A DNA stretch of 64,000 nucleotides from Amphiura filiformis (lineage: Eukaryota; Echinodermata; Ophiuroidea; Amphilepidida; Amphiuridae), in NCBI RefSeq assembly GCF_039555335.1, contig NC_092647.1, positions 13,871,594 through 13,935,593 on the forward strand. Direction: 5' to 3'. Numbering within the stretch: the first letter of the stretch is position 1; each line of letters begins with the position of its first letter. The notes under the pieces were generated by a model. The model made no database searches. It was not told the DNA's origin and was given only the letters and a program-made list of their open reading frames with translations. Made by a program: the position numbers and the translations under genes. Of this stretch, positions 3,195-46,302 are shown piece after piece.

Positions 3195-3720
3195 AGGGTC
3201 AAAGGTCATTAAGGGGTAAAATTTTACAATTGCATTATCTGAACATCTGCAAAGAGTATGTGACTCAAATTTATTGACAACAAATCTCATGACCAGGGGA
3301 ATATTTTGCAGGGGTCGGTTCAAAGGTTATGCAGAGGTCAAATCTTAGAAATACATTTTCTGGATATCTGTAAGGGGTATGGGGCTCAAACTTGGTGACA
3401 ACAAACTTCAAGACCTGGGGTAAACTTTGAAACATTTGCCTCTGTCAGGTCAAAGGTCATCTTAGGTCAAGTTTTAGAATTTCATTATCTGTACATCTGT
3501 AAGGGGTACGGCTCAAACTCAGTGATAACAAACCTCGTGACCAGGGGAAAAATTTGGAACATTTTGAAGGGGTCAGGTCAAAGGTCATCTGGGTCTAAAT
3601 CTTAGAATTGCATTTTCTAGACATCTGTAAGGAGTATGTGACTCAAACTCATTGACAACAAACCCCATGACCAGGGGAATATTTTTTGAACATTTTGCAG
3701 GGCTGATACCTCCACAACAC
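3195..3720. repeat. Tandem repeat of about 123 bp with AGGTCAAAGGTCA motifs
   Basis: About four diverged units each contain GACATCTGTAAGGGGTATG, then CAAACTCATTGACAACAAAC, then GTCAGGTCAAAGGTCAT. The same array recurs in M3 (about 23,640-24,030) and M4 (about 34,858-35,234). Some units carry a perfect AGGTCA-A-AGGTCA direct repeat, the DR1 form bound by several nuclear receptors. Whether this matters in vivo cannot be told from sequence. Confidence 0.7.
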
Positions 3721-6008: not shown

Positions 6009-7522
6009 TCACAAGACTGTTTGAAGCCTTTGTTGCAGTATTGGTATAATGTGAGGCGTGTCTTTCGTATGAATTCGTTCATGAGTTTTCAAGTTACCTG
6101 ACTGTGTGAAGCCTTTATTGCAGTATTTGCATATGTAAGGCTTCTTTTTGGTATGGATTCTTTCATGTGTTTTCAAGCTACCCGACTCCGTGAATCCCTT
6201 GTTGCAGTATTGGCATATGTAAGGCTTTTCTTTGGTATGAATTCGTGCGTGTATTTTCAAGTCACTAGACTGTGTGAAGCCTTTATTGCAGTATTGACAA
6301 ATGTAAGGCTTCTCTTTCGTATGAATTCGTTCATGTGTTTTCAAGCTACCTGACTGTGTGAAGCCTTTATTGCAGTATTGACAAATGTAAGGCTTCTCAT
6401 TGGTATGAATTCGTTCATGTGTTTTCAAGCTACCTGACTGCGTGAAGCCTTTGTTGCAGTATTGGCATTTATAAGGCTTTGCATTGGTATGAATTCGTTC
6501 ATGTTTTTTCATGTTACTAGACAGTTTGAAGCCTTTGTTGCAATACGAACATTTGTAGGTGTGAATTCGTTCATGTTCTTTCAAGTGACTAGACAATGTG
6601 AAGCCTTTATTACAGTGTTGGCATATGTAAGGCTTCTCTTTGGTATGAATTCGTTCATGTGCTTTCAAGTTACCTGACCCTGTGAAGCCTTTGTTGCAGT
6701 ATTGGCATATAAAAGGCTTCTCTTTCGTATGAACTCGTTCATGTGTTTTCAAGTCACCTGACTGTGCGAAGCCTTTATTACAGTATTGACATATGTAAGG
6801 CTTCTCATTGGTATGAACTCGTTCATGTGTTTTCAAGTTACTTGACTGTGTGAAGCCTTTATAACAGTATTGACATTTATAAGGCTTTGCATTGGTATGG
6901 ATTCGTTCATGTTTTTTCATGCTACCAGACTGTGTGAAGCCTTTGTTGCAATATGAACATTTGTAAGGTGTCTTTTTGGTATGAATTCGTTCATGTGCGT
7001 TCAAGTTACAAGACTGCGTGAAGCCTTTGTTGCAGTGTTGGCATGTGTAAGGTTTCTCCTTGGTATGGGTACGTTCGTGTGTCTTCAAGTTACTTGAATA
7101 AGTGAAGCCTTTGTTACAGTATTTGCATTTGTAAAGCTTCTCTTTGGTAAGATTCCGTTCATGTACCTTTAGCTCACTCCTGATTGAAAACGTTTTCTCA
7201 CAGTTTTGACCTTGGTAAAATGCCTGTTTCGAATCGTTCTCATTTGTTTGTTTGATTGTTGACTCATTTCCACCCGTACATTGGTCAAGAAATGGTGATG
7301 TCAGAAAACCATCTCTCCTGATGTCATCGGCGATGTATTTCTTTCTGTTGTTTGGAATGTGTATCAACTTCTTCTTATAGTCATACCAGTATCTGCGAAT
7401 CCACAGCTCGTGATGACGCAGATGACACAGATATCGATGTGTATTATTAAAGAACCTTCTGCAATATTTACACACGTGAGGCATCAGGAACTCCCATTCT
7501 CGTGGTTTTCTTGGAGGCATTT
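6009..7522 (-). CDS. C2H2 zinc-finger array A, terminal coding exon
   Basis: This is a probable nuclear DNA-binding protein of about 503 residues, starting MPPRKPREW (ATG at 7520-7518). I prefer this start over an upstream in-frame ATG because TTTATTTCAG, a good splice acceptor, ends two bases before it, as in B and C. Residues 12-40 hold one C2H2 finger followed by a conserved WIRRYWYDYKKK stretch. A linker of about 75 residues and one degenerate finger come next, then 13 regular fingers of the form CxYCNKGF...H...H. Linkers are TKEKP type rather than TGEKP. One linker is deleted between the seventh and eighth fingers. No KRAB, BTB, ZAD, SCAN or SET domain is visible. A one-base insertion shifts the last finger into PHIIPILQQRLQTVL and a stop. 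An upstream exon and promoter are not identified. Confidence 0.85.
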
Positions 7523-8134
7523 CTGAAATAAAAGAATGTAGAGCAATCGATCTAATTGAGGCAACATTACGAATCCTGAAATACATGATTCATTAAGCTA
7601 CTTACATACTAGTACTCGAATTTCTCATCAATTTCATAAAATTTCTCATAATTCAACTTTCCAAATGTCTCATCCAAAGGGAAAAATACAATTAACAGAA
7701 AAAATAAAAGTTCGTTTTTGTTTTTGTTTACGAAAATTTTCAGTTTCATACTATTTGAAGTGAAAGTTGATATACGTTTAGAGAACTTTAATTAAGAAAG
7801 AATTAATTGGTCGCTCCTGATTTAATATTTAGTCGGCTTCGTCATGTGTATTTAGGTCTTGTTCACTTTCTTCAATCCTTCTACTTCCTTTTTTTTTTTT
7901 TTTCTGAATAATATTAATATAACTTACCAGTCATATACTGTGAATTGACAATAGCTATTAGGTCTAAACTGAATCTTACTATAATTTGCTATAACCATCG
8001 GCATAAATCAAGATGTCGACAAATATCAGTTGAAATGAAGGTTACATTCTGGGCGAAATTGTACTAAAAACTCCTCAAACATGTACGTTTCTTTATCAGG
8101 CCTCTTGACTGATCGCTAGTACTAATAATCTATA
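7523..8134. other. 5' flank or intron of array A
   Basis: On the minus strand this precedes the coding exon. It carries the splice acceptor at 7523-7532 and is shared with the 5' flanks of C (27,466-27,930) and, in part, B (20,306-20,510) and D (46,160-46,260). There is a T-rich run near 7,885-7,905. It probably contains intron sequence; no upstream exon is recognisable. Compared with M2 and M3, M1 lacks about 1.4 kb after position 8,000. Confidence 0.45.
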
Positions 8135-13321: not shown

Positions 13322-13612
13322 TTTGTTTTATTTTTTTTCAATACGCCGTTATTGCAGTATTGGCATATAGGCATGTAGGGTTCTCTTTGGTGTAGGTTCG
13401 TTCAAGTATTTGTAACTTTCTAAACACAGTGAAGCCTCTACACGGTGTCTGCTCATCTGTCCTGAATGATTGAGACTTTGCTGCAGTATATTTAGCAAGA
13501 TTTTTTATTTCGTATGACTAGACCTTATAAAGATCTTGGAAAGATATAGCCTTCATTAATGCTTCTTTATGTGTTTGCAGGTTATTTGACACTTTGAAGC
13601 CTTTAATTAACA
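13322..13612 (-). pseudogene. Decayed zinc-finger tail, left part (M2)
   Basis: Near-identical to M1 5,250-5,547 and M3 25,540-25,822. It is degenerate finger sequence on the minus strand and ends at ...AATTAACA, where a LINE has been inserted. The other half resumes at 15,012. Confidence 0.75.
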
Positions 13613-14869
13613 ATCTTGGTGAAGAATACCAGTCGGCCTATCGCTCTCTGCATAGTACAGAGACAGCGCTTCTCCACGTCAAGACTAACATCATGCAGTA
13701 CCTTTACAACCAGCAAGCTGTGTTTTTGGTTTTACTACATCTGTCAGCTGCATTTGACATGGTAGAGCATAGTGTTTTGGTTCATCGTATGGCTAACGAA
13801 ATCGGCCTAAGCGGAACTGCACTAGACTGGTACAAGTCATATTTTACCAACAGAACCACCAAAATTTGTATCAATGGTACTTTTTCTGATCCTCATCAGA
13901 TGTACTATGGCCTTCCACAGGGTTCCATCGTTGGTCCAGCATCTTTCAGAATTTACATCATCCCGGTTGGTCGTATTATCAGGAAGCATCAAATCCATTA
14001 CCATATGTATGCCGACGACATTCAGCTCTTTTTAAATTTCAATCCTTCTGATTCGACTTCCATTCAATGTGCTCTGTCAAGACTCTCAAACTGCATTAGC
14101 GAAATAAAACTGTGGATGACTAACAACATGTTGATGCTGAACGATAACAAAACGGAGTTTTTTTATCGCTGTTTCACCACACAATAGGCGCAAGTTACCA
14201 TCAAATATCCATCTTCAAATTGATAACAATGTTATCATTCCCTCTGACACTGTTCGCAATCTGGGTGTCCTCTTTGATGGTCAGCTTTCCATGTCAACCC
14301 ACATTACAAGCTTGTGTAGCAATGTCACTTACTATCTTCGTAACATAACACGTATACGCCGGTTCTTAGACAGAGACACATGCCACCACATCGTTAGGTC
14401 ATTAATTCTTTCTCGTCTCGACTATGCAAATGCAGTTCTACTTGGAGCAAACGCAACTTACATCGCGAGACTTCAGAGACTGCAAAATTGGGCAGCAAAA
14501 CTAATTTTCTGTGCAAAGAAGCGTGATCATGCAACACCGTTCATCAAAGAGCTCCACTGGCTTACTATCAAGAATAGAATAACATTCAAAATCCTTGTCA
14601 TTGTTTTCAAGTGCCTAAATGGCTTTGCTCCATCATACCTTGCCTGCAACTTGTCTCTGTACTCACCTACACGAACTGGCTTACGATCTTCAACTGACAC
14701 TACCAGACTCAAAATTTACACACCTCGCACTCTTCAATCTGATGCCGACAGATCATTCGCATATGTTGCTCTTCGGTTGTGGAACACTTTACCACCTGCT
14801 CTGCGTTCTGTGCCATCACTTCAAATGTTTAAGAAAGGACTTAAAACACACCTTTTCACGCAATGATTT
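13613..14869 (+). pseudogene. Reverse transcriptase fragment, frameshifted and catalytically altered
   Basis: The first frame (to 14,187) holds RT motif A as LLHLSAAFD, motif B as LPQGSIVGP and motif C as YADD at 14,008-14,019. The second frame (about 14,190-14,869) holds the LINE C-terminal region, with RRFLDRDTCHHIVRSLILSR and the ending FKKGLKTHLF. The frames are separated by one extra T in a 7-T run at about 14,158-14,164. Motif A normally has an invariant Asp before LSAAFD; here it is His (codon 13,738-13,740), so the enzyme would be dead even without the frameshift. There is no genuine start: the frame enters from flanking finger sequence. The parent protein would copy LINE RNA at a nicked target. 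Confidence 0.88.
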
Positions 14870-15383: not shown

Positions 15384-17003
15384 TTAGCAAGACTTCTCTT
15401 TAGTATGTATACGTTCGTGTGTTTTAAAGTCACAAGACTGTGTGAAGCCTTTGTTGCAGTATTGGCATATGTAAGGCGTGTCTTTGGTATGGATTCGTTC
15501 ATGTCTTTTCATGTCACCTGACTGTGCGAAGCCTTTTTTACAGTATTGGCATATGTAAGGCTTCTTTTTGGTATGGATTCTTTCATGTTTTTTCAAGTTA
15601 CCCGACCCAGTGAATCCTTTGTTGCAGTATTGGCATATGTAAGGCGTTTCTTTGGTATGAATTCGTGCGTGTATTTTCAAGTCACTAGACTGTGTGAAGC
15701 CTTTTTTGCAGTATTGACAAATGTAAGGCTTCTCTTTCGTATGAATTCGTTCATGTGTTTTCAAGCTACCTGACTGTGTGAAACATTTGTTGCAATGTTG
15801 GCATATGTAAGGCTTTTCTTTGGTATGGATTCGTTCATGTCTTTTTAAGTTCCAAGACGTGGTGAAGCCTTTGTTGCAGTATTGACATATTAAAGGCTTC
15901 TCATTTGTATGATTTAGTTCATGATTATTCAAACTACCTGACTGTGCTGTGGTATGGGTTCGTTCGTGTCTTTTCGAGCTACCTGAATGTGTGAAGCCTT
16001 TGTTACAGTATTGGCATTTATAAGGCGTCTCTTTGGTATGAATTCGTTCATGTGTTTTCATGCTACTAGACTTTGTGAAGCCTTTGTTGCAATATGAACA
16101 TTTGTAAGGTGTGTTTTTGGTGTGAATTGCTTCATGTTCTTTCAAGCAACTAGACCGTGTGAAGCTTTTATTGCAGTATTGACATTTATAAGGCGTCTCT
16201 TTGGTATGGGTTCGTTCATGTCTTTTCAAGTTACTTGAGTCTGTGAATCCTTTATTACAGTATTGACATATGTAAGGCTTCTCTTTTGTATGAATGCGTT
16301 CATGTGTTTTCAAGTGACTTGAATGTGTGAAGCCTTTGTTGCAGTATTGGCATTTATAAGGCGTCTCTTTGGTATGAATTCGTTCATGTGTTTTCATGCT
16401 ACTAGACTGTGTGAAGCCTTTGTTGCAATATGAACATTTGTAAGGTGTGTTTTTGGTGTGAATTGCTTCATGTTCTTTCCAGCAACTAGACCGTGTGAAG
16501 CTTTTATTGCAGTATTGACATTTATAAGGCGTCTCTTTGGTATGGGTTCGTTCATGTCTTTTCAAGTTACTTGAGTCTGTGAATCCTTTATTACAGTATT
16601 GACATGTGTAAGGCTTCTCTTTTGTATGAATTCGTTCATGTGTTTTCAAGTCACCTGACTGCGTGAAGCGTTTGTTGCAGTATTGGCATATGTGAAGCTT
16701 CTCTTTGGTATGATTCCGGTCATGTAACTTTAGCTCACTCCTGATTGGAAACGAGTTTTGACAATGTTGACCTTGGTAAAATGCCTGTTTCGAATCGTTC
16801 TCATTTGTTTGCTTTCTTGTTGACTTCTTTCTGCTTGGAATGGGTATCAACTTCTTCTTATAGTCATACCAGTATCTACGAATCCACAGCTCATGATAAC
16901 GTAGATGACACAGATATCGATGTGTATTATTAAAGAACCTTTTGCAATATTTACACACGTGAGGTATCAGGTACTCCCATTCTCGTGGCCTTCTTGGAGG
17001 CAT
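15384..17003 (-). CDS. C2H2 zinc-finger array B, terminal coding exon
   Basis: A protein of 539 residues starting MPPRRPREW, with the same splice acceptor (TTTATTTCAG) two bases before the ATG. It has one N-terminal finger, the WIRRYWYDYKKK stretch and a linker shorter than in A (the ADDIRRDGF segment is missing). One degenerate finger follows, then 15 regular fingers and one half-finger (about residue 350) that lost its two cysteines. Fingers 2-5 and 6-9 are a recent tandem duplication of 336 bp (exactly four fingers). The last finger is in frame and the protein ends TKEKSC, unlike A and C, which are frameshifted there. It is probably a nuclear DNA-binding protein and the best-preserved family member here. 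Its 5' flank was replaced by a mobile element at 17,097. Confidence 0.87.
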   Translation of the reverse strand: MPPRRPREWEYLIPHVCKYCKRFFNNTHRYLCHLRYHELWIRRYWYDYKKKLIPIPSRKKSTRKQTNENDSKQAFYQGQHCQNSFPIRSELKLHDRNHTKEKLHICQYCNKRFTQSGDLKTHERIHTKEKPYTCQYCNKGFTDSSNLKRHERTHTKETPYKCQYCNKSFTRSSCWKEHEAIHTKNTPYKCSYCNKGFTQSSSMKTHERIHTKETPYKCQYCNKGFTHSSHLKTHERIHTKEKPYICQYCNKGFTDSSNLKRHERTHTKETPYKCQYCNKSFTRSSCLKEHEAIHTKNTPYKCSYCNKGFTKSSSMKTHERIHTKETPYKCQYCNKGFTHSGSSKRHERTHTTAQSGSLNNHELNHTNEKPLICQYCNKGFTTSWNLKRHERIHTKEKPYICQHCNKCFTQSGSLKTHERIHTKEKPYICQYCKKGFTQSSDLKIHARIHTKETPYICQYCNKGFTGSGNLKKHERIHTKKKPYICQYCKKGFAQSGDMKRHERIHTKDTPYICQYCNKGFTQSCDFKTHERIHTKEKSC

Positions 17004-17096
17004 TTCTGAAATAAAAGAATGATAAATGGCATTCTATCTAATTGAGGCAACATTGTGAATCCTGATACACGATTCATTATCAGGCTACTTTACTTC

Positions 17097-19400
17097 TAAA
17101 ATAACGCGTCGTATCCGCCGTGTTAGGGAAGATATCGGCGTCAAATTCGATATATACGGTAAGGGTCGAATTACAAACTACCCGAGGGGGTCGATAGGTC
17201 ACTGCTCTTAAAGAATTAATTTTGTCTAGGGAAATATCGTATTTTTCGTTCTATAGCACGTATCGAGGAAAAAATTCGGGTTTTGACCTCGTGATCCCTC
17301 GACCTGGAAGTGATGCTTGACCCGGAGCGATCCTTTGACGAACTTTGATCCCTACGTGTCCATGTACTCGTATAAAATGACTTATTATCGGTGTGACATA
17401 AACCAGTTAGAATCCACCACCATCACATACAACAAAATACACCAATGCGTAATGAAATGCGTCAAAGCGTAACGAAATGCGTCGATTGCGAAATGAAATG
17501 CGTCAAAGCGTAACGAAATGCGTCGATCGCGTAACTGAATGCGTCAAAGCGTAACGAATTGCGTCAAAATGCGTCATTGCGTCCTAATATGCGTCAAAGC
17601 GTAACAAATTGCTTAAAAATGCATCATTGCGGCGTGAAATGCGTTGAGGCGTAACGAATTATTTCAAAATGTGTCAAAAATAACGTGATTCTTTACGCAA
17701 TTTAACTATGACATCGTTTCCGGTACAAAGTGGCGCACTTCCGATACAAAACTTCACTTTCAAAATGCACTTCCGGTTGACCTTTGACCCAGAAGTGACA
17801 CTTGATCCCTTAATTGCATCAAAACGTAACAAATTGCGTAACGAAATGTATCAAAATGTAACATATTGCGTCAAATTGCATCGATCGCGCGACGAAATGC
17901 GTAACGCGAAAGTGAGGTTTAACATTGGGTTAATAACGAGTAAAAGAGTTGATTGTATTTTGTTTCTCTACTTTATTATCTTTAATTCGCGGGTTCATAT
18001 TCGTCATCCTCTCCCATGGCAGTGACATTATCATCTTCATCGTACTGGAACAGCCCGTAAAATTTAGAGCGATGTTTAGCCATCGTTCTCTTCACGGCTT
18101 TGTCCACCTCGACGCCATTCTCCATTTTCTCCTCGAGATCGTCCGCGATCTCCGTGTAAACTCCGTCGTCTTTGAGAAGCGCGTGGCTTCGTAGAAACGT
18201 GCTGTACCGCTCGAAAAAGTCGCGTTTTACGGCCCATGCAGTTTTCATATGGGCATTTTCCCTCGCCATCTCCGGATCCATGCCGTCGCCGACGTACTTT
18301 TCGTATTTTTGCCTCCTCATATCTTCCGTGGCTCCCTCGTACCATTCCCGATAAGCCTCGTTGTCTTCCAGTTCGTCGCCGGATTCTCGGTCCGAGACAA
18401 CCTCAGAATCGTTATCGTCGGACTCCTCCTCTTCCTCCTCCTCTTCGTCTTGTTCTTCAAGGTGTACGTGTCGCTTGTGTCTCTCAAGATCGTACTTGCG
18501 CGAGAACGCCCTGCCGCACACGGAGCAAGGATAAGTTTTAAAGGTATTCATGTCGACTTTTCGGAAGTTAGGATCGAAATGATCGATAGGTTTAAATTAA
18601 CGAACTTATATTAAGCTTTTGCGTTACGCTAATCATTACGCAATTGACGCATTAAATTGCGCAATCGACGCAGTTTTACACATTTCATTACGCTTTGACG
18701 CACATTGCAGCGTAATTGACGCAATTTGCTACGCTTTGACGCAATTCGTTACGCTTTGACAATGCAATGACGCATTTTGACGCAATTCGTTACGCTTTGA
18801 TGCATCTCGTTACGCAATTGACGAAATTCGTTACGCTTTGACGCATTTCATTACGCAATTGACCCGATTCATTACGCTTTGACGCATTTCGTTACGCGAT
18901 CGACGCATTTTGACGCATTGGAGCATTTTGTCGTATATGTGATGGTGGTGGGAGGAGGGGATGGGAGAATTTGTTCTCTAGTTTTATCCAGTTCTTTATC
19001 GCAATGCTCCGCTCATCGACATTCCTTATTCATTTATGCGCTCATTGACTCATTTACTCGCTCATTGACTCATTCCACCGCTCATTTGCCCGCTCCTTAG
19101 CTCATTCCACCACTCATTCGCTCATTTACACGCTCATCGGCTCATTCCTCGCTCATCGACTCGTTCCGGTACGAGTTCGACGCGGTTCGAGGTGTTTTGT
19201 TCAAAAACCGAATTTTGTTACCTCGATACGTAGTATAGAACGAAAAATATGATATTTCCCTAGACAAAATCAATTTTTTAAGCGCATTGACCTTTCGACC
19301 CCTAGACCCCCGCGGGTAGTTTGTAATTCGACCCTTACCGTATATACCGAATTTGACGCCAATACCTTCCGTAATACGGCCGATACGACGCGTTATTTTA
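17097..19400. mobile_element. 2.3 kb terminal-inverted-repeat element carrying its own zinc-finger gene
   Basis: Both ends are TAAAATAACGCGTCGTAT (inverted), and the arms pair over about 190 bp (17,097-17,283 and 19,210-19,400). Further inward a second pair lies at 17,415-17,455 and 18,912-18,953 (CCACCACCATCACATA and complement). Then come dense copies of a short motif, GCGTCAAAGCGTAACGAAAT, pointing one way on the left (17,443-17,910) and the opposite way on the right (18,620-18,925). Between them is one gene (17,982-18,551). The right side also has tandem GCTCATTGACTCATT repeats (19,000-19,160). No target duplication is visible and about 175 bp of array B's flank is missing. I do not recognise the family. 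Confidence 0.75.
17982..18551 (-). CDS. Single-finger C2H2 acidic protein inside the TIR element
   Basis: 189 residues, ATG at 18,551-18,549. Residues 7-30 form one C2H2 finger (CSVCGRAFSRKYDLERH, then KRHVH: C-x2-C-x12-H-x4-H). Residues about 32-50 are an almost pure Glu/Asp tract. The remaining 130 residues are charged and look helical, with motifs EWYEGATEDMRRQKYEKYV, GMDPEMARENAHMKTAW and KRTMAKHRSKFYGLFQYDED. A poly(A) signal AATAAA lies just after the stop (complement at 17,972-17,977), so it may be a complete one-exon gene. Codon use is more GC-rich than the surroundings, suggesting separate origin. I do not recognise the family. It could bind the flanking iterated motif, regulate it or help mobilise the element; that is inference. 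It is unrelated to arrays A-G beyond the finger fold. Confidence 0.7.
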   Translation of the reverse strand: MNTFKTYPCSVCGRAFSRKYDLERHKRHVHLEEQDEEEEEEEESDDNDSEVVSDRESGDELEDNEAYREWYEGATEDMRRQKYEKYVGDGMDPEMARENAHMKTAWAVKRDFFERYSTFLRSHALLKDDGVYTEIADDLEEKMENGVEVDKAVKRTMAKHRSKFYGLFQYDEDDNVTAMGEDDEYEPAN

Positions 19401-19650
19401 GGCAAATTTTTTCCCTTATTTTTAATATTTTAAAAAATTTTTGAAATTTGTTTTTTTTAATTTTTTGTTGGAATTTTTTTTTTTTTTTGAAATTGTTTTG
19501 AAATTTTGTTTGGGAAATTTGATTTTGAAATTTTTCTCATTTTTTTCAACTTTTTTCTTTTCAAATTTTATTCAAATATGCTAATTAGCCACGCCCACCT
19601 CATGAATATTCATATATGCTAATTAGCCACGTCCATCTCATGAATATGCA
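19401..19650. repeat. T-rich tract and 46-bp tandem duplication
   Basis: 19,401-19,570 is low-complexity A/T sequence. 19,577-19,650 contains two copies of ATGCTAATTAGCCACG(C/T)CC followed by CTCATGAATAT. There is no gene. Confidence 0.6.
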
Positions 19651-19654
19651 AACC

Positions 19655-19862
19655 GACCTTTGACCCACCTTGGTGACCTTTGATCCGAAAGGGACGTCAT
19701 CGTGACCTTTGACACGTGATGACCTTTGAACAACGGTGACCTTTGACCCGGAAGTGACCTTTCACGTGACGTCATCGTGACCTTTGACCCGTGATGACCT
19801 TTCACCTTTGACCTCGGATGACCTTGACCCGGAAGTGACGTCAACGTGACCTTTGACCTAGC
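19655..19862. repeat. Array of TGACCTTTGACC (DR1) and TGACGTCA motifs
   Basis: About ten TGACCTTTGA-type units lie in 208 bp. Three are perfect TGACCTTTGACC (19,737-19,748; 19,778-19,789; 19,847-19,858), the reverse of AGGTCAAAGGTCA. Two perfect TGACGTCA octamers (19,768-19,775; 19,836-19,843) lie between them. These match DR1 nuclear-receptor and CREB/ATF consensus sites; they may simply be a satellite. Confidence 0.7.
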
Positions 19863-19880
19863 GTACAAAAAAGCCACCCG

Positions 19881-20305
19881 TAACTATAATGAAAGATAAA
19901 GATAAAGACAATTTATCGCGTCTGACGTCACCTGTCAATCAAACTCGAGCACGGTTTGTTTACAAGTGTCGTGATGATGACTTGCTGAACGCGGATTTAT
20001 AACCGGGCGCCTTATTGTTGATTTTGCACCTTTCGACATGCAAACCATCTCAAAAGTTAGGTCTTATAGTAGGAAACTTTCTTTGGTGAAGGCACCATGT
20101 CCACAATGCCTGGAAAAGCTGCTTTTTGCCTTGTAAAAGTACGAACTTTTTCGCCATTTGCTGCTATTCCTTTTCTCCGATCAGCACCAGATAGATCGGT
20201 CTTCCTTTTACGCGCTGAATACCTGTGTAAACCAATCAAGGATCGTAATTGACAGTGACATCAGACGCGATAAATTGCTTTTATCTCTGTCTTTAATTAT
20301 ACTAA
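19881..20305. mobile_element. MITE with ATTTATCGCGTCTGA subterminal motif
   Basis: The left arm (19,881-19,942, AATTTATCGCGTCTGACGTCA) and the right arm (20,243-20,305, TGACATCAGACGCGATAAATT) are inverted repeats of about 60 bp. A 60-codon minus-strand frame in the interior (20,057-20,239) is basic (RKRKTDLSGADRRKG) but too short and isolated to call. After it, module M2 sequence resumes. Confidence 0.7.
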
Positions 20306-22364
20306 CTTTAATAAGGAATTTTGGTCGCTGCTGATTTAATATTTCGTCATGTGTATTTGCGTCTTGTTCACTTTTTTTCAATCTTTCTACTTCCGCCTTT
20401 TTCCTCAGTCTCCTGAATAAAATTGATACAACTGTAGCAATCATATACTTCGAATCGACAATAGCTATTGGTCGAAACTGAATTTTACTTAGTATAATTT
20501 GCCTTGTTTATGCAAGTGTTATGTATGTATGTGTGTGTAGAAGGCTCTGTCAGTTTTGATCCAAATTCACACGGAAGATCGAGAAAATACGAAGAGTGTT
20601 TTAAGCTACGTTCGGATGAAATCGGAGGTCGAAGGTCAAAGGTCAACTTGGTGCGATTGGGCTTAAATTTGATGAGTGGAATCCTTGATATGAGGGTAAT
20701 GCGGAGGTCAAAGGTCAAATGTTAAAACTTTGTCTGATTGGGCAAAAACTTGGTGAGTGGAATTATTCGAGGTAAAAAGGCCATGATGGGGACAACATAT
20801 CAAAGCATGCCTGATTGGGCACAAACTTGGTAAACTAATTATAGCAAGTTTAAATTGAAATAAATACCAATTGTTCAATGAATGTGTGCTGTCATGATAC
20901 AGGCAAATGGCGCTAGTAAGTCAATAGAGGTCAATGTGCATTTGCCCACTGTTTCGGCAGACATAAGGCTTAAAGGCAGGCCGAGAGGGGGAGGGCAAGA
21001 ATTTTGGCACGCCATTTGGAAATTTTACCCCCCCCCCTTCAGGGGAGCTAATATATTGCACAGCCACTTATTCTTAGTCTCAAAGCCGTTTACCGTTTTT
21101 CGGCAAAAAATAAAATTTAAACTGAAAAAAGCTGACTTATTTCTTTATTTTTTCGTTTGCAATTTAGACCAAAATATAATGCAAGAGAAGGTTTTTTTAG
21201 TTTACATTCTAAGCAAAAAATAAAAGAATAATATAAATTGAGTAGTCTTTACTGTAAATAAAATACAGATATAAATTCCTGAATTACTTATAATTATAAT
21301 CTACGTGTATTTCACACACCAATTTAGATATGCAATACCAATAAGTATTTTTACTTTATCAGCAACATAACATAGTTTCCATAATGGCCTAAGTAAGGAC
21401 CTAGTTGCTATGGTTACTCTACTTCTACTCCCAAGTGCAAATTCAGGGTGACCCAAATTTTACACTGCTGGGAGTCCAGACGCAGTTTGCTGCAAGCCAA
21501 ATATACAAATTCTTTGGTTTGGGGCCCAAATGAGGTGTATGGGTCATAGGACACTCACACTATGTTATTCTACATTTAGGTGCTTATTTTAAAAACCAGT
21601 CTGGAGGTATCGAGAGTGAACTCAATATTCACTATAAACTATACGTATAGGATACCATAGGCCTGTTTTTGAACATGGACTTATGAGGATACATGTCTAG
21701 AAGTTAAAAGCGCCCAAGAAGAAGAAGTCCAAGACATCAGCTTCTATTTTACGGTTTATTGTATTTCAAGTTCTATATCACCCGCGTATACCTGGCGTAT
21801 AAAAAAAAACTATATATAAAAAAAACCAAGTAAAAATGGTCTTTTTTATGGTCGAACGCGACTGCACGAGTATCGGAATATATAGGTATCAAAAATCAGC
21901 AAAATGGGGTAAAAAGGAGTACAGTGATCCGGGCCTTAACTTTAATAGCACATACTCGAAAAGGGTAGAACAATCGGCATAAATCAAGATGTCGACAAAT
22001 ATCAGTTGAAATGAAGGTTACAATTACATGCTGGGCGAAATTGTATATACTAAAAACTCCTCAAAACATGTACTTTTTCTTTATCAGGCCCCAGATAGCT
22101 AGTACATGTACTAATCATGCTAATAATACATTGCATAGCTGATTGGGGTGTGTTCGCCACGACTCAAACATCTACTTGTTCATGGTAGGAAACAACCGCG
22201 TTGTACATGTATACTTGTTTTAGGTCCATTTTGAAAAATACTTCTTTTGGCTACTTTCCCGGGGTACTTTTTTAAAGTCCTTGCGCTGTACAGCTTGACT
22301 ACGCGGGTGACAGCTTGAAATACATATGCCCCGGCCCCCAGCGCTAATACACACATTCTGTACA
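20306..22364. repeat. M2 5' block, paralogous to M3 27,730-33,840
   Basis: Non-coding. It contains AGGTCAAAGGTCAA motifs (20,633-20,720), a C-rich run near 21,030 and CAATTTAGATATGCAATACC at 21,320-21,340. That last sequence is the empty site of the 4 kb nested insertion in M3. Small frames here are not conserved with M3. Confidence 0.65.
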
Positions 22365-22628: not shown

Positions 22629-25539
22629 AAATCAGATGAACTCTAAATCCAGCATTTGTCTAATGTTTCTTAACTACTCAAATAGTAATAATACATCAAA
22701 GTTTGGTTTATACACATACCTGAATAACGTTAAATATCCGGCAAAATATGAAGGAATCCCAGACATCTATCTAGCACCCTTGCTCTATAGCTTCTATAAA
22801 ATGGCTTAATACCACTGACCCAGGGTCATTCTGAGGTTTCTCCAACACATGAATAAAGTTTTGTTTACGGGGCCTGTTTTTCAGTGTATGTCACATCACA
22901 AATATTGGAATATAGTGTTCCAATATCTGTGGTCACAATAACATTTAGAAGGCTTAATGATTTTGTATAAAGCTGTATAAATTGGCTCGTGCTTGTACTT
23001 TCAAGGTAAATTTATATTTTGCATATATGATATATAGGCTTAATGCTAATAACTTTAAATGCCCACAAAACCTACTATCTTTTAAAAAAACACACCACTA
23101 AACAGTAATTTTGTTTTTCTACAAGATATTTTCTTGGGAAATTTAAATAAGAATACAATTCAGTTATTCAGAAATTAATCTTGGATTTCCGGTTGAAAAT
23201 CTTGGATTTGTGATTGAAAACCTTGTTTCTCGGCGAAAAAGGAATAATAATAATAATAGATGTGCCATAAACATCACACATTTGTCCAAACTTCAGCTGA
23301 AACTTAATTACCTAGCTGGGGGGGGGGGTTACAACCCCCTGAGCTAGGTCCTGTTTTTCTATCCGTTCTTTCTGCTTCTTTCTTCTTTCTGGCAATCAAC
23401 TTCAAAATGCTTCTCCTCCTACATGTTACACCCTACAGTTACGTAACTTGTACATTATGTATCGGCTATATCCAATTCCCATAAGGTGTAAACAGAAGGT
23501 CATTAAGGGGGCATTACCGGTATATAACCAAATACATTCAAAATGCTTCTTCTACCACAAATTACATAGCACAATATGACGTCACCTGCATATATGCATA
23601 TCGGTTATAGCCTACCCTGTGCCTACTTGTACACAGAATTAGGGTCAAAGGTCATTAAGAGGTAAAATCTTAGAAATACATTTTCTGGACATCTGTAAGG
23701 GGTATGGGGCTCAAACTTGGTGACAACAAACTTCATGACCTGGGGTAAACTTTGCAGGTCAAAGGTCATCTTAGGTCAAGTTTTAGAATTTCATTATCTG
23801 TACATCTGTAAGTGTACGGCTCAAACAACAGTGATAACAAACCTCGTGGCCAGGTGAACAATTTGGAACATTTTGAAGGGGTCAGGTCAAAGGTCATCTG
23901 GGTCTAAATCTTAGAATTGCATTTTCTGGACATCTGTAAGGAGTATGTGACTCAAACTCATCGACAACAAACCCCATGGCCAGGGGAATATTTTTTGAAC
24001 ATTTTGCAGGGATCAGATACCTCCACAACACCAACACTTCGACTTTGGAAGTGACGGGATGTGCGTCTTTCGGTGAGAACCTAGACACCAAAAAAGGGTC
24101 TTTCGGTGAGAAGGCCCAAAAAACTGGAAAATCTTACCAAAAAGGGGGTCTTTCCGTATATAAGACTGGAAAAAATTGGGTCAAAATATAAAAATTGATA
24201 CAAAATTTTCAAAAAGTCATCAAAATTTGAAAATTTATGATACTTGAAATTTAAATAAAAATAGTCATTCGGTGAGAGATCAGCAATTTGTCTAAAATTC
24301 TTGAAAAATGGGGTCTTTTGGAAAACAATAAGGGGGTCATTGGGTGCGAGGGAGTTCAGTAAAGCAAAAAAGGGGATCCTTGGGTGAGAAGGAGCCTGTG
24401 GTCAATGTGGCCGCACGTCCCCGTCGCCCATTTTTTATGCAGATTTTGGTGTCAGGACTAGAAGTCACATTGTACTTTTACACTTGATTTGGTTGCTTGA
24501 GGACAATTTCTTAATAATATTTACAAAACGTGCGTGTTAATTTTACCTACATGTTTAATAAGTGGACTGTATGATTACACTATTTAACCTATCAATCATA
24601 TATGCGATCGTCAACAAATAACATTGAAGCTTGAAAAAAAATCAATTACTCAAGCCCTGTGTAGTTGTTTCAACTCTCATAAATATAATATAAATCTTAA
24701 CTTTAGGTGACGATAAAAAGACAAAACTATTCTACGGGCCCGTCTGACCCAAATATTGCGTTTTGGGGAGTGTAGGAAATTAAAAACAGCGGGTTTTTTT
24801 TGCCGAAGTGGATTGATTTTGAGAGAAATTTATCCCAAAAAAAATCTATTGTCTATTATGTTTACAAAAACTGTTCAGATTTGTCAAGCTTTCCGTCATT
24901 TTTAGGTCATATTATAATAGCATCTTCCAGAAAAAATCATTACCGATCTTCACCCTATTTGTTAAGTCCGTAAGAATAGGGTTTTTTTAAAGTCATAATT
25001 AATTCAAACATAACTTTGGCTATACTCAATTTCTTACATATCAAATAGCAACACTTTAAAAAATGTTCATCACAAAAAGTAAAATAGAGTAATTCATATC
25101 AATAGAATTTTGTGTAATAATCTTTTGTGTACACAAATCTCATCTATGAATAGACGCCAGCCCCTATGGGCTGGCGAAAAGATGAATGGAAAGTGGACTG
25201 GTTAGGTGAAGGTGACGCCACACACTCTGGACTTGGTCTGCTAGAATTTTAGAAGAGTACTTTTAATATTGGCCGGTTATTTTTCACACAGCGACGTTAA
25301 CTAGACAAATCCCCATACTTCTAACATACGCTATTTGTAGAGGTTACGCGTCAATGGTAAGAGCACTGTGTATTGTGTTTAGGAAAACGGACAGTAACTG
25401 CAGTATGCCATTTTTTGTTATTGCAAAATGTAGGTTTTCAGCTAAATATCAAAGGTTTTACTGTTCTATAATTGGAAAAACTTGGATTTTCAACCGATAA
25501 CCCAAGATTTTTTCAAATTTGAAAACTTTGCTTTCTTTT
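22629..25539. repeat. M3 left blocks, paralogous to M1 340-5,240
   Basis: A long, closely matching copy of M1: nuclear-receptor-like tandem repeat (23,640-24,030), GGTCTTTCGGTGAG MITE (24,020-24,465), GGGCCCGTCTGACC element (about 24,712-24,985) and the ATGGGCTGGC hairpin (about 25,155). It lacks the M1 insertions at 492-1104 and 1255-2634. There are no genes. Confidence 0.7.
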
Positions 25540-26301: not shown

Positions 26302-27465
26302 TCACAAGACTGTGTGAAGCCTTTGTTGCAGTATTGGCATAATGTGAGGCGTGTCTTTGGTATGGATTTGTTCATGTGTTTTCAAGTTACCTGACTGTGC
26401 GAAGCCTTTGTTGCAGTATTGGCATACATAAGGCTTTTCTTTGGTATGAATTCGTGCGTGTGTTTTCAAGTGACTTGACACTGTGAAGCCTTTATTACAG
26501 TATTGACAAATGTAAGGCTTCTCTTTCGTATGAATTCGTTCATGTGTTTTCAAGCTACCTGACTGTGTGAAGCTTTTGTTGCAGTATTGGCATATGTGAG
26601 GCTTCTCTTTGGTATGGATTCGTTCATGTCTTTTTAAGTTCGTGGTGAAGCCTTTGTTGCAGTATTGACATTTATAAGGCGTCTCTTTGGTATGAGTTCG
26701 TTCATGTGTTTTCATGCTACTAGACTGTGTGAAGCCTTTGTTGCAATATGAACATTTGTAAGGTGTGTTTTTGGTGTGAATTCCTTCATGTTCTTTCAAG
26801 CAACTAGACCGTGTGAAGCTTTTATTGCAATATTGACATTTATAAGGCGTCTCTTTGGTATGAATTCGTTCATGTATTTTCAACTTACTAGACTGTGTGT
26901 AGCCTTTATTGCAGTATTGGCATATGTAAGGCTTCTCTTTGGTATGGATTCGTTCATGTCTTTTCAAATTACTTGAGTCTGTGAATCCTTTATTACAATA
27001 CTGACATTTGTAAGGCTTCTCTTTTGTATGAATTCGTTCATGTGTTTTCCAGTGACAAGAGTGTGCGAAGCCTTTGTTGCAGTATTTGCATATGTGAGGC
27101 TTCTCTTTGGTATGATTACGGTTATGTAACTTTAGCTCACTCCTGCTTGGAAACGATTTTTGACAATGTTGACCTTGGTAAAATAACAATTCCGAATCGT
27201 TCTCATTTGTTTGCTTTCTTGTTGACTCATTTCCAAGATATGACGATGTCAGAAAACCATCTCTTCTGATGTCATCGGCGATGTACTTCATTCTGCTTGG
27301 AATGCGTATCAACTTTTTCTTATAGTCATACCAGTATCTGCGAATCCACCGCTCATGATGACGTAGATGACACAGATATCGATGCGTATTATTAAAGAAC
27401 CTTCTGCAATATTTACACACGTGAGGCATCATGTACTCCCATTCTCGTGGTTTTCTTGGAGGCAT
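26302..27465 (-). CDS. C2H2 zinc-finger array C, terminal coding exon
   Basis: 387 residues starting MPPRKPREW (ATG at 27,465-27,463), with the acceptor TCTATTTCAG two bases upstream. It has one N-terminal finger, the WIRRYWYDYKKK segment and a linker with ADDIRRDGF. A degenerate finger follows, then nine regular fingers. The sixth is two residues short (FTTNLKRH), which would distort its helix. The last finger is frameshifted at the same place as in A and ends PHIMPILQQRLHTVL. It shares the NKSFTRSSCLKEHE and [17 protein letters not shown] fingers with B, so fingers have been exchanged or inherited in blocks. It is probably a nuclear DNA-binding protein with fewer fingers than A or B. Confidence 0.85.
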   Translation of the reverse strand: MPPRKPREWEYMMPHVCKYCRRFFNNTHRYLCHLRHHERWIRRYWYDYKKKLIRIPSRMKYIADDIRRDGFLTSSYLGNESTRKQTNENDSELLFYQGQHCQKSFPSRSELKLHNRNHTKEKPHICKYCNKGFAHSCHWKTHERIHTKEKPYKCQYCNKGFTDSSNLKRHERIHTKEKPYICQYCNKGYTQSSKLKIHERIHTKETPYKCQYCNKSFTRSSCLKEHEGIHTKNTPYKCSYCNKGFTQSSSMKTHERTHTKETPYKCQYCNKGFTTNLKRHERIHTKEKPHICQYCNKSFTQSGSLKTHERIHTKEKPYICQYCNKGFTVSSHLKTHARIHTKEKPYVCQYCNKGFAQSGNLKTHEQIHTKDTPHIMPILQQRLHTVL

Positions 27466-28748
27466 TTCTGAAATAGAAGAATGATAAATAGCATTCTATC
27501 TAATTGAGGCAACATTGTGAATCCTGATACACGATTCATTATCAGGCTACTTTACTTCAATCGAATTTATCTTCAATTTCATAAAAGTTCTCATAATTCA
27601 ACTTTCCAAATGTCTCATCCAACGGAAAAATAAAATCAACAGAAATGATAAAAGTTCGTTTTGTTTACGAAATTTTTCAGTTTTATACTATTTGAAGTGA
27701 AAGTTGATACACGTTTAGAGAAAGAACTTTAAGAAGGAATTTTGGTCGCTGCTGATTTAATATTTCGTCATGTGTATTTGCGTCTTGTTCACTTTTTTTT
27801 TTTTTTTTCTACTTCCGCCTTTTTCCTCAGTCTCGATCTCCTGAATAAAATTGATATAACTGTAGCAATCATATACTTCGAATTGACAATAGCTATTGGT
27901 CGAAACTGAATCTTACTATAATTTGCCTTGTTTATGCAAGTGTTTATGTATGTATGTGTGTGTGTAGAAGGCTCTGTCAGTTTGATCCAAATCTCTCCAA
28001 ATTCACACGGAAGATCGAGAAAATACGAAGAGTGTTTTAAGCTACGTTCGGATGAAATCGGAGGTCGAAGGTCAAAGGTCAAATTTTTAAAACTTGGTGC
28101 GATTGGGCTTAAATTTGATGAGTGGAATCCTTGATATGAGGGTAATACAGAGGTCAAAGGTCAAATTTTAAAACTTAGTCTGATTGGGCAAAAACTTGGT
28201 GAGTGCAATTATTTGAGGTAAAAAGGCCATGATGGGGACAACATATCAAAGCATGCCTGATTGGGCACAAACTTGGTAAACTAATTAGAGCAAGTTTAAA
28301 TTGAAATAAGATACGGGCATATGGCGCTAGTAAGTCAATAGAGGTCAATGTGCATTTGTCCACTGTTTCGGCAGACATAAGGCTTAAAGGCAGGCCGAGC
28401 GGGGAGGGGAGGGCAAGCAATTTTTGCACGCCATTTAAAATTTTACCCCCCTCCAGGGCAGGGGAGCTAATGTATTGCACAGCCACTTATTCTAAGTCTC
28501 AAAGCCGTTTACCGTTTTTCGGCAAAAAATAATAAAATTTAAACTGAAAAAGCTGACTTCTTTATTTTTTCGTTTGCAATTTAGACCAAAATATAATGCA
28601 AGAGAAGGTTTTTTTAGTTTACATTCTAGGCAAAAAATAAAAGAATAATATAAATTGAGTAGTCTTTACTGGAAATAAAATACAGATATAAATTCCTGAA
28701 TTACTTATAATTATAATCTACGTGCATTTCACACACCAATTTAGATAT
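27466..28748. other. 5' flank of array C and M3 block
   Basis: It matches the 5' flank of A and the M2 block from 20,306. It includes AGGTCAAAGGTCAA repeats at 28,065-28,165 and a T run at 27,797-27,810. No upstream exon is recognised. Confidence 0.5.
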
Positions 28749-35744: not shown

Positions 35745-37830
35745 GTCAAACCTAGATAGTAAATTGAACTCATCAATACTATCTACACTAGATAGCAAAT
35801 TGAACTCATCGATACTATCTACAGTAGATAGAAAATTGAACTCATCAATACTATCTACAGTAGAAAGCAAATTGAACTCACCAATACTATCTACAGTAGA
35901 TAGCAAATGGAACTCATCAATACTATCTACAGTAGATAGCACATTGGATTCATCAATGCTATCTACAGTAGATAGAAAATTGAACTCATCAATGCTAACT
36001 ATAGTAGATAATAAATCGGAATTCACCAATGCTATCTATATTAGATAGCAAATGGAACTCATCAATACTATCTTAATTTGATTTATCATTGCTACCTACA
36101 GTAGGCATATATAGTAAATTGAACACATCAATACTATCTACAGTAGATAGCAAATTGAACTCATCAATACTATCTACAGTAGATAGCAAATTAAACTCAT
36201 CAATGCTATCTACAGTAGATAGCAAATTAAACTCATCAATGTTATCTACAGTAGATAGCAAATTGAACTCATCAATGTTATCTACAGTAGAGAGCAAATT
36301 GAACTCATCAATACTATCTACAGTAGATAGCAAATTGAACTCATCAATGTTATCTACAGTAAATAGCAAATTGAATTCATCAATACTATCTACAGTAGAT
36401 AGCAAATTGAACTCACCAAAACTATCTACAGTAGATAGCAAATTAAACTCATCAATGCTATCTACAGTAGATAGCAAATTAAACTCATCAATGTTATCTA
36501 CAGTAGATAGCAAATTGAACTCATCAATGTTATCTACAGTAGATAGCAAATTGAACTCATCAATACTATCTACAGTAGATAGCAAATTGAACTCATCAAT
36601 GTTATCTACAGTAGATAGCAAATTGAACTCATCAATACTATCTACAGTAGATAGCAAATTGAACTCATCAATACTATCTGCAGTAGATAGCAAATGGAAC
36701 TCATCAATACTATATACAGTAGATAGCACATTGGATTCATCAATGCTATCCACAGTAGATAGCGAATTGGACTCATCAATGCTTTCTACAGTAGAGAGCA
36801 AATTGAATTCATCAATGGAATCATTAATGCTATCTACAGTAGATAGCGAATTGGACTCGTCAATGCTTTCTACAATAGAGAGCAAAATGAATTCATCAAT
36901 ACTATCTACAGTAGATAGCACATTGGATTCATCAATGCTATCTACAGTAGATAGCGAATTGGACTCATCAATACTATCTACAGTAGATAGCAAATTGGGC
37001 TCAACAGTGCTTAGTAGAGAGCAAACTGAATTCATCAATGGGAATCATTAATGCTATCTACAGTATATAGTAAATTGGTATCTGAATGCTATCTACAGTA
37101 GATAGCGAATGGGAATCATCTATGCTATCTGCAGTACATATAGAATATTGAAATCATTAATTTCATCTAGATCGCATATCGGTCTCATGCTATGTACCGC
37201 AGATAGCAAATTGGAACTCATCAATACTATTTACAGTAGATAGCAAATTGAACTCATCAATGCTACAGTAGATTGCAAATCGAACTTATCAATGCTTTCT
37301 ACAGTAGATAGCAAATCGAACTTATCAATGCTTTCTACAGTAGATAACAAATTGGAGCTCATCAATGCTATCTACAGTAGAGAACAAATCGGAACTCATC
37401 AGACATCATTGCTATCTACAGTAGATAGCAAATTGGACTTATCAATGCTATCTACAGAAGATAGCAAATTAAACACATCAATGCTATCTACAGTAGATAG
37501 CAAATTGGAACTCATCAATGCTATCTACAGTAGAGAGCAAACTGGAACTTATCAATACTATCTACAGTAGATAGTAAATTGAACTCATCAATGCTTTCTA
37601 CTGTAGATAGCAAATTGGAACTCATCAATGCTATCTACAGTAGATAGCAAATTGGAACTCATCAACGCTATCTACTGTAGATAGCAAATTGGAACTCATC
37701 AATGCTATCTACAGTAGATAGCAAATTGAACTCATCAATGCTATCTACAGTAGATAGCAAATTGAACTCATTAATACTCTCTACAGTAGATAGCAAATTG
37801 GAACTCATCAATGCTATCTACAGCATTAAA
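35745..37830. repeat. 36-bp satellite with internal palindrome, main block
   Basis: More than 50 copies of a 36- or 37-bp unit, each with CTATCTACAGTAGATAG (8-bp arms around one A) followed by CAAATTGAACTCATCAATG. The unit length is a multiple of three, so both strands appear open for over 300 codons (LSTVDSKLNSSM on plus, LSTVDSIDEFNL on minus). I read that as an arithmetic artefact, not a protein. The right half (after 37,050) is more irregular, with 37-bp units that break the frame. Confidence 0.9.
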
Positions 37831-39711: not shown

Positions 39712-41272
39712 CTTCTCTTCGTTCGTTCATGCTTCTCCAAACTACCTGACTGTGCAAAACCTTTATTACAAATTAGCAGTCTCTTTTGTATGAATTCTTT
39801 CATGTGACTGCGCTAAAGTTATATAACTGTGTACGTGTGAAGCCTTTATTGCAATACTACTTACATTTGTAAAGCTTTTATTTGGTATGAGTTCGTTCAT
39901 GTATTTTCAAGTGACCAGACTGTGTGAAGCCTTTGTTACAGTATTAGAAGATGTAAGACTTCTCTTTCGTATGGATTTGTTCGTGTGTTTTCAAGTTACT
40001 TGACTTTGCGAAGCCTTTGTTACAGTATTGACATTTGTAAGGCTTCTCTTTGGTATGGGTTCGTTCGTGTGCTTTCAAGTTACCTGGCGCTGTGAAGCCT
40101 TTGTTGCAGTATTGACATATGTAAGGCTTCTCTTTCGTATGAATTCGTTCGTGTTTTTTTAAGTCACCTGACATTGTAAAGCCTTTGTTGCAGTATTGAC
40201 ATTTATAAAGCTTCTCATAGGTATGGATTCGTTCATGTCTTTTCAAGTTACTTGACTCCGTGAAGCCTTTAGTGCAGTATTGGCATATGAAAGGCTTCTC
40301 ATTTGTATGGGTTCGTTCGTGTGTTAAATTACCTGACTGTGTGAAGCCTTTATTACAATATTGACATTTATAAGGCGTCTCTTTTGTATGAATTCGTTCA
40401 TGTGTTTTCAACTTACATGACTGTGTGAAGCCTTTGTTGCAATATGAACATTGTATTGTCTTTTTGGTGTGAATTCGTTCATGTGCGTTCAAGTAACTTG
40501 ACCATGTGAAGCATTTATTACAGTATTGGCATATGTAAGGTTTCTCTTTGGTATGGATTCGTTCGTGTGTTTTCAAGTTACTTGACTTTGCGAAGCCTTT
40601 GTTACAGTATTGACATATGTAAGGCTTCTCTTTCGTATGAATTCGTTCGTGTTTTTTCAAGTCACCTGACATTGTAAAGCCTTTGTTGCAGTATTGACAT
40701 TTATAAAGATTCTCATAGGTATGGATTCGTTCATGTCTTTTCAAGTTACTTGACTCCGTGAAGCCTTTAGTGCAGTATTGGCATATGAAAGGCTTCTCAT
40801 TTGTATGGGTTCGTTCGTGTGTTAAATTACCTGACTGTGTGAAGCCTTTATTACAATATTGACATTTATAAGGCGTCTCTTTTGTATGAATTTGTTCATG
40901 TGTTTTCAAGTTACTAGACTGTGTGAAGCCTTTGTTGCAATATGAACATTTGTAAGATGTATTTTTGGTGTGAATTCGTTCATGTGCGTTCAAGTTACAT
41001 GACTGTGTGAAGCCTTTATTACAGTATCGACATTTATAAGGCGTCTCTTTGGTATGAATTCGTTCATGTTTTTTCATGTTACCAGATTGCGTGAAGCCTT
41101 TGTTGCAGTATTGGCATTTATAAGGCTTTGCATTGGTATGAATTCGTTCATGTGCGTTCAATTTACTTGACCATGTGAAGCCTTTATTACAGTATTGGCA
41201 TTTGTAAAGCTTCTCTTTCGTAAGCATTCGTTCATGTTCCTTCAAGTTACTTGACTTTGTGAAGCCTTTATT
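39712..41272 (-). pseudogene. C2H2 array F, 15 fingers without a first exon
   Basis: The open part (39,944-41,245) encodes 15 regular fingers in 433 residues. Upstream, the expected CAG before YC is TAG, and finger similarity ends at about 41,272. There is no MPPRKPREW exon, so the frame has no normal start. Downstream, CAA-to-TAA (YIF stop) ends the frame where E still reads through. Two three-finger blocks (SGNLTHERTH, TESSNLKRH, TMSGDLKKH) are near-identical, a recent internal duplication; each keeps a one-residue deletion in SGNLTH. It is probably a pseudogene or a donor array, unless an upstream exon supplies a start. Confidence 0.72.
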
Positions 41273-41799
41273 ACAATACTATTTTAAAAAAATATTCCAA
41301 TATGGTTCAGTTTTGAAATTGTGATTATTTTTCTAAGTGTAAGGATACTTTTTTGGCGCAGCATGTTAAAGCATGGTAGTATATGGCGCGCTAAATGTAC
41401 CTCCATGCATTACTGAGAGGTTAACTTTCGCGCCATCACAAACGGTGCCGCAACTTCCATAGATTGTTGTGTACGATGTAGTTAATGGTAATGGCACGTG
41501 CCTGGAGGATTTAAACAATAGCGAGATCTGGGCGACCAATCACACGCCAGATCCGTTTAATGATGCATTACATCATGGCCAATTTTAGTTAGCCCAGAAA
41601 TTGGCCTAACTCTACATAGAGCCCCGTGTAAAGAATCTTAACCGCAACCCAAACTAAGTAGTCCACTTGGGAAGCTAACAAACAGAGGGAGTATGGTGAC
41701 TGAAAATATCAGATGTGCACACAAATTAATGCAAATCGGCGTTAAATGCTTAAATGTAATAGCCAGAGTATGCAAAATGGGCAAGTGGACTACGGAGAA
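41273..41799. other. Non-coding single-copy-looking stretch
   Basis: No gene or repeat recognised. It contains a few short CG-rich words (GGCGCGC, GCGCCA) that are rare elsewhere in the window. Confidence 0.3.
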
Positions 41800-46065: not shown

Positions 46066-46302
46066 CTGAAACGAATAATAAACATCAATCCATCTAATTA
46101 TCTAATTGAGGCAAACATTGGCGAATCTTAGCGACCAGTGTCATTATTGGCCTAATCACTAATTCTACTTCATTTGACATTTTCAATCAATTTCATAAAA
46201 TTTCTCAATTTTCCATATGTCACATCGTTCGGACAAAATACAATCAATAGAAACAGTACAAGTTTGTTTTCGTTTCCTTCCAAGTCATTTCGGGTATTTC
46301 AG

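Follow-up and report, generated by a model that had tools for sequence, protein, structure and literature searches.

The window analysed here, one stretch of DNA of 64 kb with a GC content of 36%, contains an element bounded by terminal inverted repeats (TIRs), whose sole recognisable gene lies between two arrays of short repeats (iterons) and encodes a protein with one C2H2 zinc finger. A new observation is that the contact residues of this finger predict the reading of the triplet GCG; no other trinucleotide is as strongly enriched in the arrays over the rest of the window. Tentatively, the element can be understood as a DNA transposon that is not autonomous, has composite arms of the foldback-like type and encodes its own putative end-binding protein, a reading that we hold with slightly less than even confidence. 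An earlier note on this DNA had described a gene-bearing TIR element. That observation is confirmed, and it is supported by a left boundary that is exact when compared with an empty paralogous site.

Anatomy of the element and its gene

The features to which the text refers are the following (positions are those of the window).

17097..19400, no strand assigned: whole element, delimited by its TIR ends; the left end is also the break of homology with the empty paralogous site
17097..17286, plus strand: left outer TIR; GCGTCG lies at a distance of 9 bp from the end, GCGTCAAA at 41 bp
17447..17910, plus strand: left iteron array, dense to about 17658 and then sparse
17972..17977, minus strand: AATAAA, possible poly(A) signal
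17982..18551, minus strand: gene of 189 codons, with a C2H2 finger (residues 7-30), an acidic tract (33-66) and a predicted helical C-terminal domain
18606..18610, minus strand: TATAA, 59 bp upstream of the start codon, putative core promoter
18621..18920, minus strand: right iteron array, in the opposite orientation, ending 10 bp from the TATA-like box
19030..19167, no strand assigned: right-only repeat array (CGCTCATTGACTCATT) with a period of about 20 bp
19201..19400, minus strand: right outer TIR, with GCGTC sites placed as in the left TIR
27466..27558, no strand assigned: empty paralogous site, which agrees with 17004-17096 at all but 2 of 93 bp and diverges thereafter

The element begins with TAAAATAACGCGTCGTATC at 17097 and closes with its complement, which ends at 19400. 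The decamer TAAAATAACG occurs once per strand in the 64 kb, at the two element ends. The TIRs of about 190 bp that had been reported are borne out by alignment, with 17 substitutions in 190 aligned bases (8.9%) and 10 gap columns, 8 of which form a single gap on the left side; BLAST gives 87% over 201 columns. The GCGTC sites are symmetric and lie 9 and 41 bp from each element end. No second copy of the element was found in the 64-kb window. The longest direct repeat at the ends is TA, the target duplication of Tc1/mariner elements, obtained when the element is set at 17099-19398 and with a right flank that is not ancestral; the paralogous site has no TA at 27558. Mutator/Phantom elements duplicate 8-10 bp of target; here, with the ends shifted symmetrically by as much as 6 bp, direct repeats did not exceed 2 bp, again with this non-ancestral right flank.

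Each arm is composed of the outer TIR and of 20/41-bp repeats, and this arrangement is inverted between the two sides. Long composite TIRs with tandem repeats, by which the foldback-like class is recognised, are thus present. In their best register (17447-17580 versus 18764-18897), the two arrays are 9.0% apart, which is similar to the divergence of the outer TIRs, and 119 of 134 bases agree in the ungapped comparison. Since the outer TIRs and the arrays are equally diverged between the sides, each array looks like the internal segment of a single long inverted-repeat arm of the type known from foldback elements. Such a position inside the arms would account for the opposite orientation of the iterons. 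For this reason, the inverted orientation, which had been put forward as a sign of function, stands as an observation and loses part of its significance. The idea that the arrays resemble each other more than the copies within one array do was dropped. Shifted by 41 bp against itself without gaps, the left array agrees in 91% of 79 bp and the right array in 77% of 93 bp, so that this within-array comparison does not decide whether the arrays are inner arm parts. The spacing of GCG sites in steps of 8 and 12 bp was not counted as helical phasing because the 20/41-bp duplication produces it. The right-only array is not claimed as a set of diverged iterons, as 32 of 300 shuffles reach its local score. 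It contains TGACTCA, which we take to be an AP-1-like word.

The gene content given earlier, with one finger and a Glu/Asp tract, was recovered. The finger CSVCGRAFSRKYDLERHKRHVH follows the pattern CX2CX12HX3-5H and matches Pfam zf-C2H2 (E 5.2e-6; 27.1 bits, with a cut-off of 25.2), and the net charge of the acidic tract is about -20 at pH 7. The stop-free run of 204 codons is by itself not remarkable, being reached in 15 of 1000 shuffles of the element and in 3 of 1000 shuffles of 17926-18630. It is the finger, together with the GC content by codon position (0.605/0.316/0.605), for which 17982-18551 is counted as a gene. Residues 68-189 are predicted to form mostly helices, with a mean pLDDT of 66 when folded alone; the mean for the whole protein is 55, both models having been made without an alignment. 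The possible poly(A) signal reported after the stop is also in place. AATAAA begins 5 bases past the stop codon, and its chance occurrence within 25 nt at the density of the window is about 3%.

The finger and the array core

Repeats of the form GCGT[A/C]A run in one direction to the left of the gene and in the opposite direction to the right of it. The left array contains 27 GCG and 6 CGC (counted over 17441-17910), and the right array, read in its own orientation, contains 23 GCG and 4 CGC (counted over 18621-18940). With both arrays brought into the left orientation, this amounts to 50 GCG versus 10 CGC. The word GCGTMA is found 39 times in the element (16.9/kb) versus 21 times in the rest of the window (0.34/kb), and it is therefore 50-fold denser in the element. 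The full 20-mer is rarer. With at most 2 mismatches, it occurs 4 times on the plus strand left of the gene, 3 times on the minus strand right of it and nowhere else in the window; with at most 4 mismatches, there are 6 matches on each side of the gene and still none elsewhere; with at most 6, 3 of 16 matches lie elsewhere. Consequently, the "many copies" of an inverted motif described in the earlier note hold with respect to orientation and density, and copies close to the exact 20-mer are few. The half-site AWWGCGTMAA is a better repeat unit. Among the 48 GCG sites with enough flanking sequence, A is present at position -3 in 42, T at +3 in 42 and A at +5 in 38.

The recognition helix of the finger is RKYDLER, with R at position -1, D at 3 and R at 6. 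In the usual recognition code, this combination reads 5'-GCG-3'. The helix RSDDLVR, which has identical residues at these three positions, is listed by Zinc Finger Tools for GCG triplets in several rows of the accessible part of a published table, one row of which assigns it to TGG also (PMC5260015). A literature search for the helix RSDELTR together with GCG gave no result.

Among all trinucleotides, GCG shows the strongest enrichment in the arrays relative to the rest of the window (14.9-fold), followed by CGT (7.9) and TGC (4.2), in a measure that favours CpG words because the window is CpG-poor. When the values of the CpG trinucleotides are scaled to their pooled enrichment, GCG keeps the first place among them (3.2-fold; the next is CGT with 1.7). 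A first-order model of the arrays places GCG 1.5-fold over expectation and seventh by ratio among the trinucleotides counted at least 10 times, behind GTA, TCA, AGC, GTC, TGC and CGT, so this control does not single GCG out from the longer core. By our own estimate, the code triplet would agree with the top-ranked triplet by chance in a few per cent of cases, and the agreement was looked for when the arrays were already known. The agreement between the finger code and the array core lends support to the predicted binding and is not a proof of it.

The same agreement bears on a different origin of the gene, in which a foldback-like element took up an unrelated host zinc-finger gene, the protein does not bind the iterons, and these serve a transposase alone, as in Galileo. 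The agreement would then be a coincidence, as would the distance of only 10 bp between the last iteron and the TATA-like box. The CpG observed/expected ratio of the gene (1.52) is high like that of the arms, compared with 0.63 and 0.92 in the flanks. RKYDLER is also unlike all 16 pattern-found fingers of the neighbouring host gene, which counts against that gene alone as the source. Such a capture is nevertheless consistent with the GC content of the gene, 0.51 versus 0.40-0.42 in the arms, and with the accessible text on the nematode element Tm1, according to which foldback-like arms with tandem repeats are known with several transposase classes, and both non-autonomous members and members that carry host sequence have been described (PMC3169594). 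We consider it unlikely, though by no means negligible.

The insertion site and the age of the element

Several C2H2 finger-array genes are clustered in the window, which also contains a fragment of a LINE reverse transcriptase. The finger-array genes, all on the minus strand, are the following.

6009-7589, minus strand: C2H2 array gene, paralogue frame
15384-17003, minus strand: C2H2 array gene, the host gene adjoining the element
26302-27495, minus strand: C2H2 array gene, paralogue frame
39944-41278, minus strand: C2H2 array gene
44957-46097, minus strand: C2H2 array gene, paralogue frame

An N-terminal module of 24 residues, in variant forms, is common to four of these five genes. The LINE-like remnant (13531-14866) consists of two overlapping frames, the first of which matches RVT_1 (E 5.4e-23) and the second of which has no Pfam match. 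Other repeats in the window include a minisatellite at 35753-37823, with a shift of about 36 bp and more than 320 codons open on both strands, and a tandem array at 46506-48047, with a period of about 124 bp and about 90% likeness between copies.

The upstream flank of the host gene matches the paralogue at 27312-27558 through position 17096, the base before the element, and no further. Within the noncoding 93 bp directly before the element, 91 bases match the empty paralogue. On the right side, homology to the paralogue resumes at 20304 (equivalent to 27725). Between these points, the element and 903 bp of other sequence take the place of 166 bp of the paralogue, so the right junction is not ancestral. 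No convincing remnant of the missing 166 bp was found in 19401-20320 (the best match, E 0.003, is in reverse orientation). With regard to mobility, the empty paralogous site is exact at the left end, the right junction is rearranged and one copy is seen in 64 kb.

The additional 903 bp include an AT-rich stretch, two 38-bp repeats, a satellite of the TGACCTTTGAC type and a MITE-like inverted-repeat element. The MITE-like element (19885-20301) has inverted ends of about 55 bp that are 87% alike, and it ends where the homology to the paralogue resumes. The TGACCTTTGAC repeats occupy 19655-19860, with minus-strand copies at 3198-3577, 20635-20707, 23644-23886, 28071-28153 and 34857, partly near GGAAGTGAC; the word resembles a nuclear-receptor DR1 site. 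A copy inside the element (17778) was rejected as part of the element's design and is treated as a host repeat because the motif is scattered across the window.

The near flanks differ little from the empty paralogue. To the 2 differences in 93 bp on the left can be added 8 in 292 aligned bases on the right, where the alignment also contains 25 gap columns. The CpG observed/expected ratio is 1.84 in the element and 0.63 and 0.92 in the flanks, a comparison in which the CpG contained in the repeats themselves has to be considered. Together, the small divergence of the near flanks and the CpG richness suggest a rather recent arrival of the element; on the other side, the coding flank further left is 13% apart (125 of 944 positions differ), and gene conversion between the paralogues could mislead this dating. 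If the empty paralogue is ancestral and the near flanks were not reset by gene conversion, the divergence of the arms predates the arrival. In that case, the open frame says little on selection at this site, and it suggests that the source copy was intact.

These observations also bear on the idea of an old element, fixed at this site, that the host has retained as a zinc-finger gene driven by an iteron promoter. In its favour, the frame is open over 189 codons in an element with arms that are 9% apart. Against it stand the little-changed near flanks and the CpG richness of the element, and if the arrival was rather recent, no selection at this site is required to explain the open frame. Such a domesticated locus is improbable.

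Known systems and the proposed mechanism

A search of the protein, which the earlier note had proposed, returned no known relative beyond the finger in Pfam, PHROGs, NCBIfam or PDB, and the part behind the finger is represented by the helical model mentioned above (pLDDT 66). Residues 68-189 have no match in Pfam, and the whole protein has, beyond zf-C2H2, only matches below the cut-off, mostly to other finger families. The lowest E value in PHROGs is 0.07, with no match of the C-terminal domain, and NCBIfam gives nothing up to E 1. Among PDB sequences, the whole protein has 160 matches, the best 60 of which are all zinc-finger proteins aligned in or near the finger; residues 75-178 have none. 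The sequence collections searched for relatives are prokaryotic and viral, and the pattern search detects close relatives only. Within this scope, tblastn confirmed none of 21 pattern stretches in viral_contigs and none of 125 in genome_contigs for the whole protein, and none of 8 in viral_contigs for residues 75-178. A single tblastn match of residues 68-189 in phages (E 10) was discarded. The iteron 18-mer and the TIR 20-mer are absent from viral_contigs; the TIR 18-mer occurs in two bacterial MAG contigs of genome_contigs, where about 7 occurrences are expected by chance (257 Gb, both strands). Scans for tRNA genes and Rfam families found nothing.

Besides the gene, 37 other ORFs of at least 45 aa overlap 17097-20303. 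No transposase was recognised among these unspliced frames, and none reaches a Pfam cut-off. Weak matches in small ORFs (WD40_4, E 0.024; DUF2293, E 0.037; SOR_N, E 0.075) are below the cut-offs and were discarded. More specifically, no DDE/D transposase such as autonomous Tc1/mariner members encode, no MULE transposase with a FLYWCH finger and no THAP-domain transposase was found in the gene and the 37 other ORFs of this element copy. One explanation would be that an autonomous element encodes both the protein and a transposase, and that the present copy has lost the latter, so that its one-gene layout is accidental. In its favour, the non-autonomous Tm1 elements are regarded as derivatives of an autonomous one (PMC3169594), En/Spm encodes TnpA together with TnpD (PMC2613891), and only a single copy is visible in the 64-kb window. 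On the other hand, the gene is flanked by the two arrays and has a TATA-like box and a possible poly(A) signal of its own, and the 37 further ORFs show no remnant of another coding domain. Such a deletion derivative is quite possible, although we do not regard it as probable, and it is compatible with the protein being an end-binder.

TnpA of En/Spm is said to pair the element ends. In the accessible part of the source, TnpA recognises subterminal repeats, is required for transposition and regulates its own activity; the present element resembles En/Spm in having an element-encoded DNA-binding protein, apart from a transposase, and repeated motifs near the ends, the binding here being predicted (PMC2613891). 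Repeated subterminal motifs and a finger protein are both present, with binding as a prediction. In contrast to En/Spm, which belongs to the CACTA superfamily of plants, the element has long TIRs, an animal-like host, ends that read TAAAATAACG rather than CACTA or CACTG, a C2H2 finger protein that is not TnpA and no transposase gene among the ORFs scanned.

Galileo, a P-superfamily element of Drosophila, shares the long, internally repetitive TIRs and a zinc-binding recognition domain, with binding again predicted in the present case. The accessible text reports that the THAP zinc domain of its transposase binds sites inside the TIRs and that its authors suggest a complex synapse with transposase multimers (PMC3688188). 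The difference is that THAP is a part of the transposase, whereas the one-finger protein encoded here stands alone and has no recognised catalytic domain. Tm1 (Mutator/Phantom, nematodes) has composite foldback-like TIRs with tandem repeats (of about 14 bp), unequal TIRs (on average 93.15% identical) and non-autonomous members, as far as the accessible text describes them (PMC3169594). In comparison with Tm1, no 9-bp target duplication was seen in the element (next to a right flank that is not ancestral), no MULE or FLYWCH domain was found, and the repeat unit is different. A host protein, the Drosophila GAGA factor, offers a comparison for the finger itself. According to the accessible part of the source, its single C2H2 finger contacts three bases, and the protein multimerises and prefers clustered motifs; here, the reading of a triplet is a prediction (PMC12618267). 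The GAGA factor is not a transposon protein, forms multimers through a POZ domain and has basic regions ahead of its finger, of which there is hardly any sign in the protein of the element. In the partly accessible literature, no one-gene C2H2 element of such a kind was recognised, which is no proof of absence in print.

For the element as a non-autonomous transposon with its own end-binding protein, in a role similar to that of TnpA in En/Spm, the following mechanism can be proposed. The single finger would read GCG within the half-site AWWGCGTMAA. A single zinc finger binds weakly. The helical C-terminal domain, whose model reaches a mean pLDDT of 66, may multimerise, which is a guess, and many weak contacts along an array could then add up. 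Such a multimer could coat or pair the arms through the 27 and 23 GCG words of the arrays, so that the arrays near both ends would be marked and brought together for a transposase that, as we infer, is made elsewhere in the genome. Binding to the right array might also control transcription of the gene itself. This autoregulation is suggested by position only, the right array lying next to the TATA-like box of the gene. A self-regulating unit, or one that uses a transposase in trans, had been put forward earlier. Both proposals fit the lack of a recognised transposase in the 37 ORFs and the match between the triplet predicted for the finger and the core of the iterons, and both stay at the level of prediction.

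In a wider sense, the element might represent a half-autonomous class of animal transposons, in which the sole gene is a minimal one-finger, end-binding regulator that coevolves with its own iterons and claims a shared transposase, a TnpA-like function that would have arisen independently out of a C2H2 finger. We see this as conceivable and rather doubtful. If the finger does read GCG, a unit of 2.3 kb would hold a regulator together with about 50 of its own sites and would be a compact natural case of a transposon in which end recognition is separated from catalysis. If true, this would bear on the role of long repetitive TIRs in foldback-like elements, and one finger and one repeated core would provide a testable pair for studying the coevolution of a protein and its sites.
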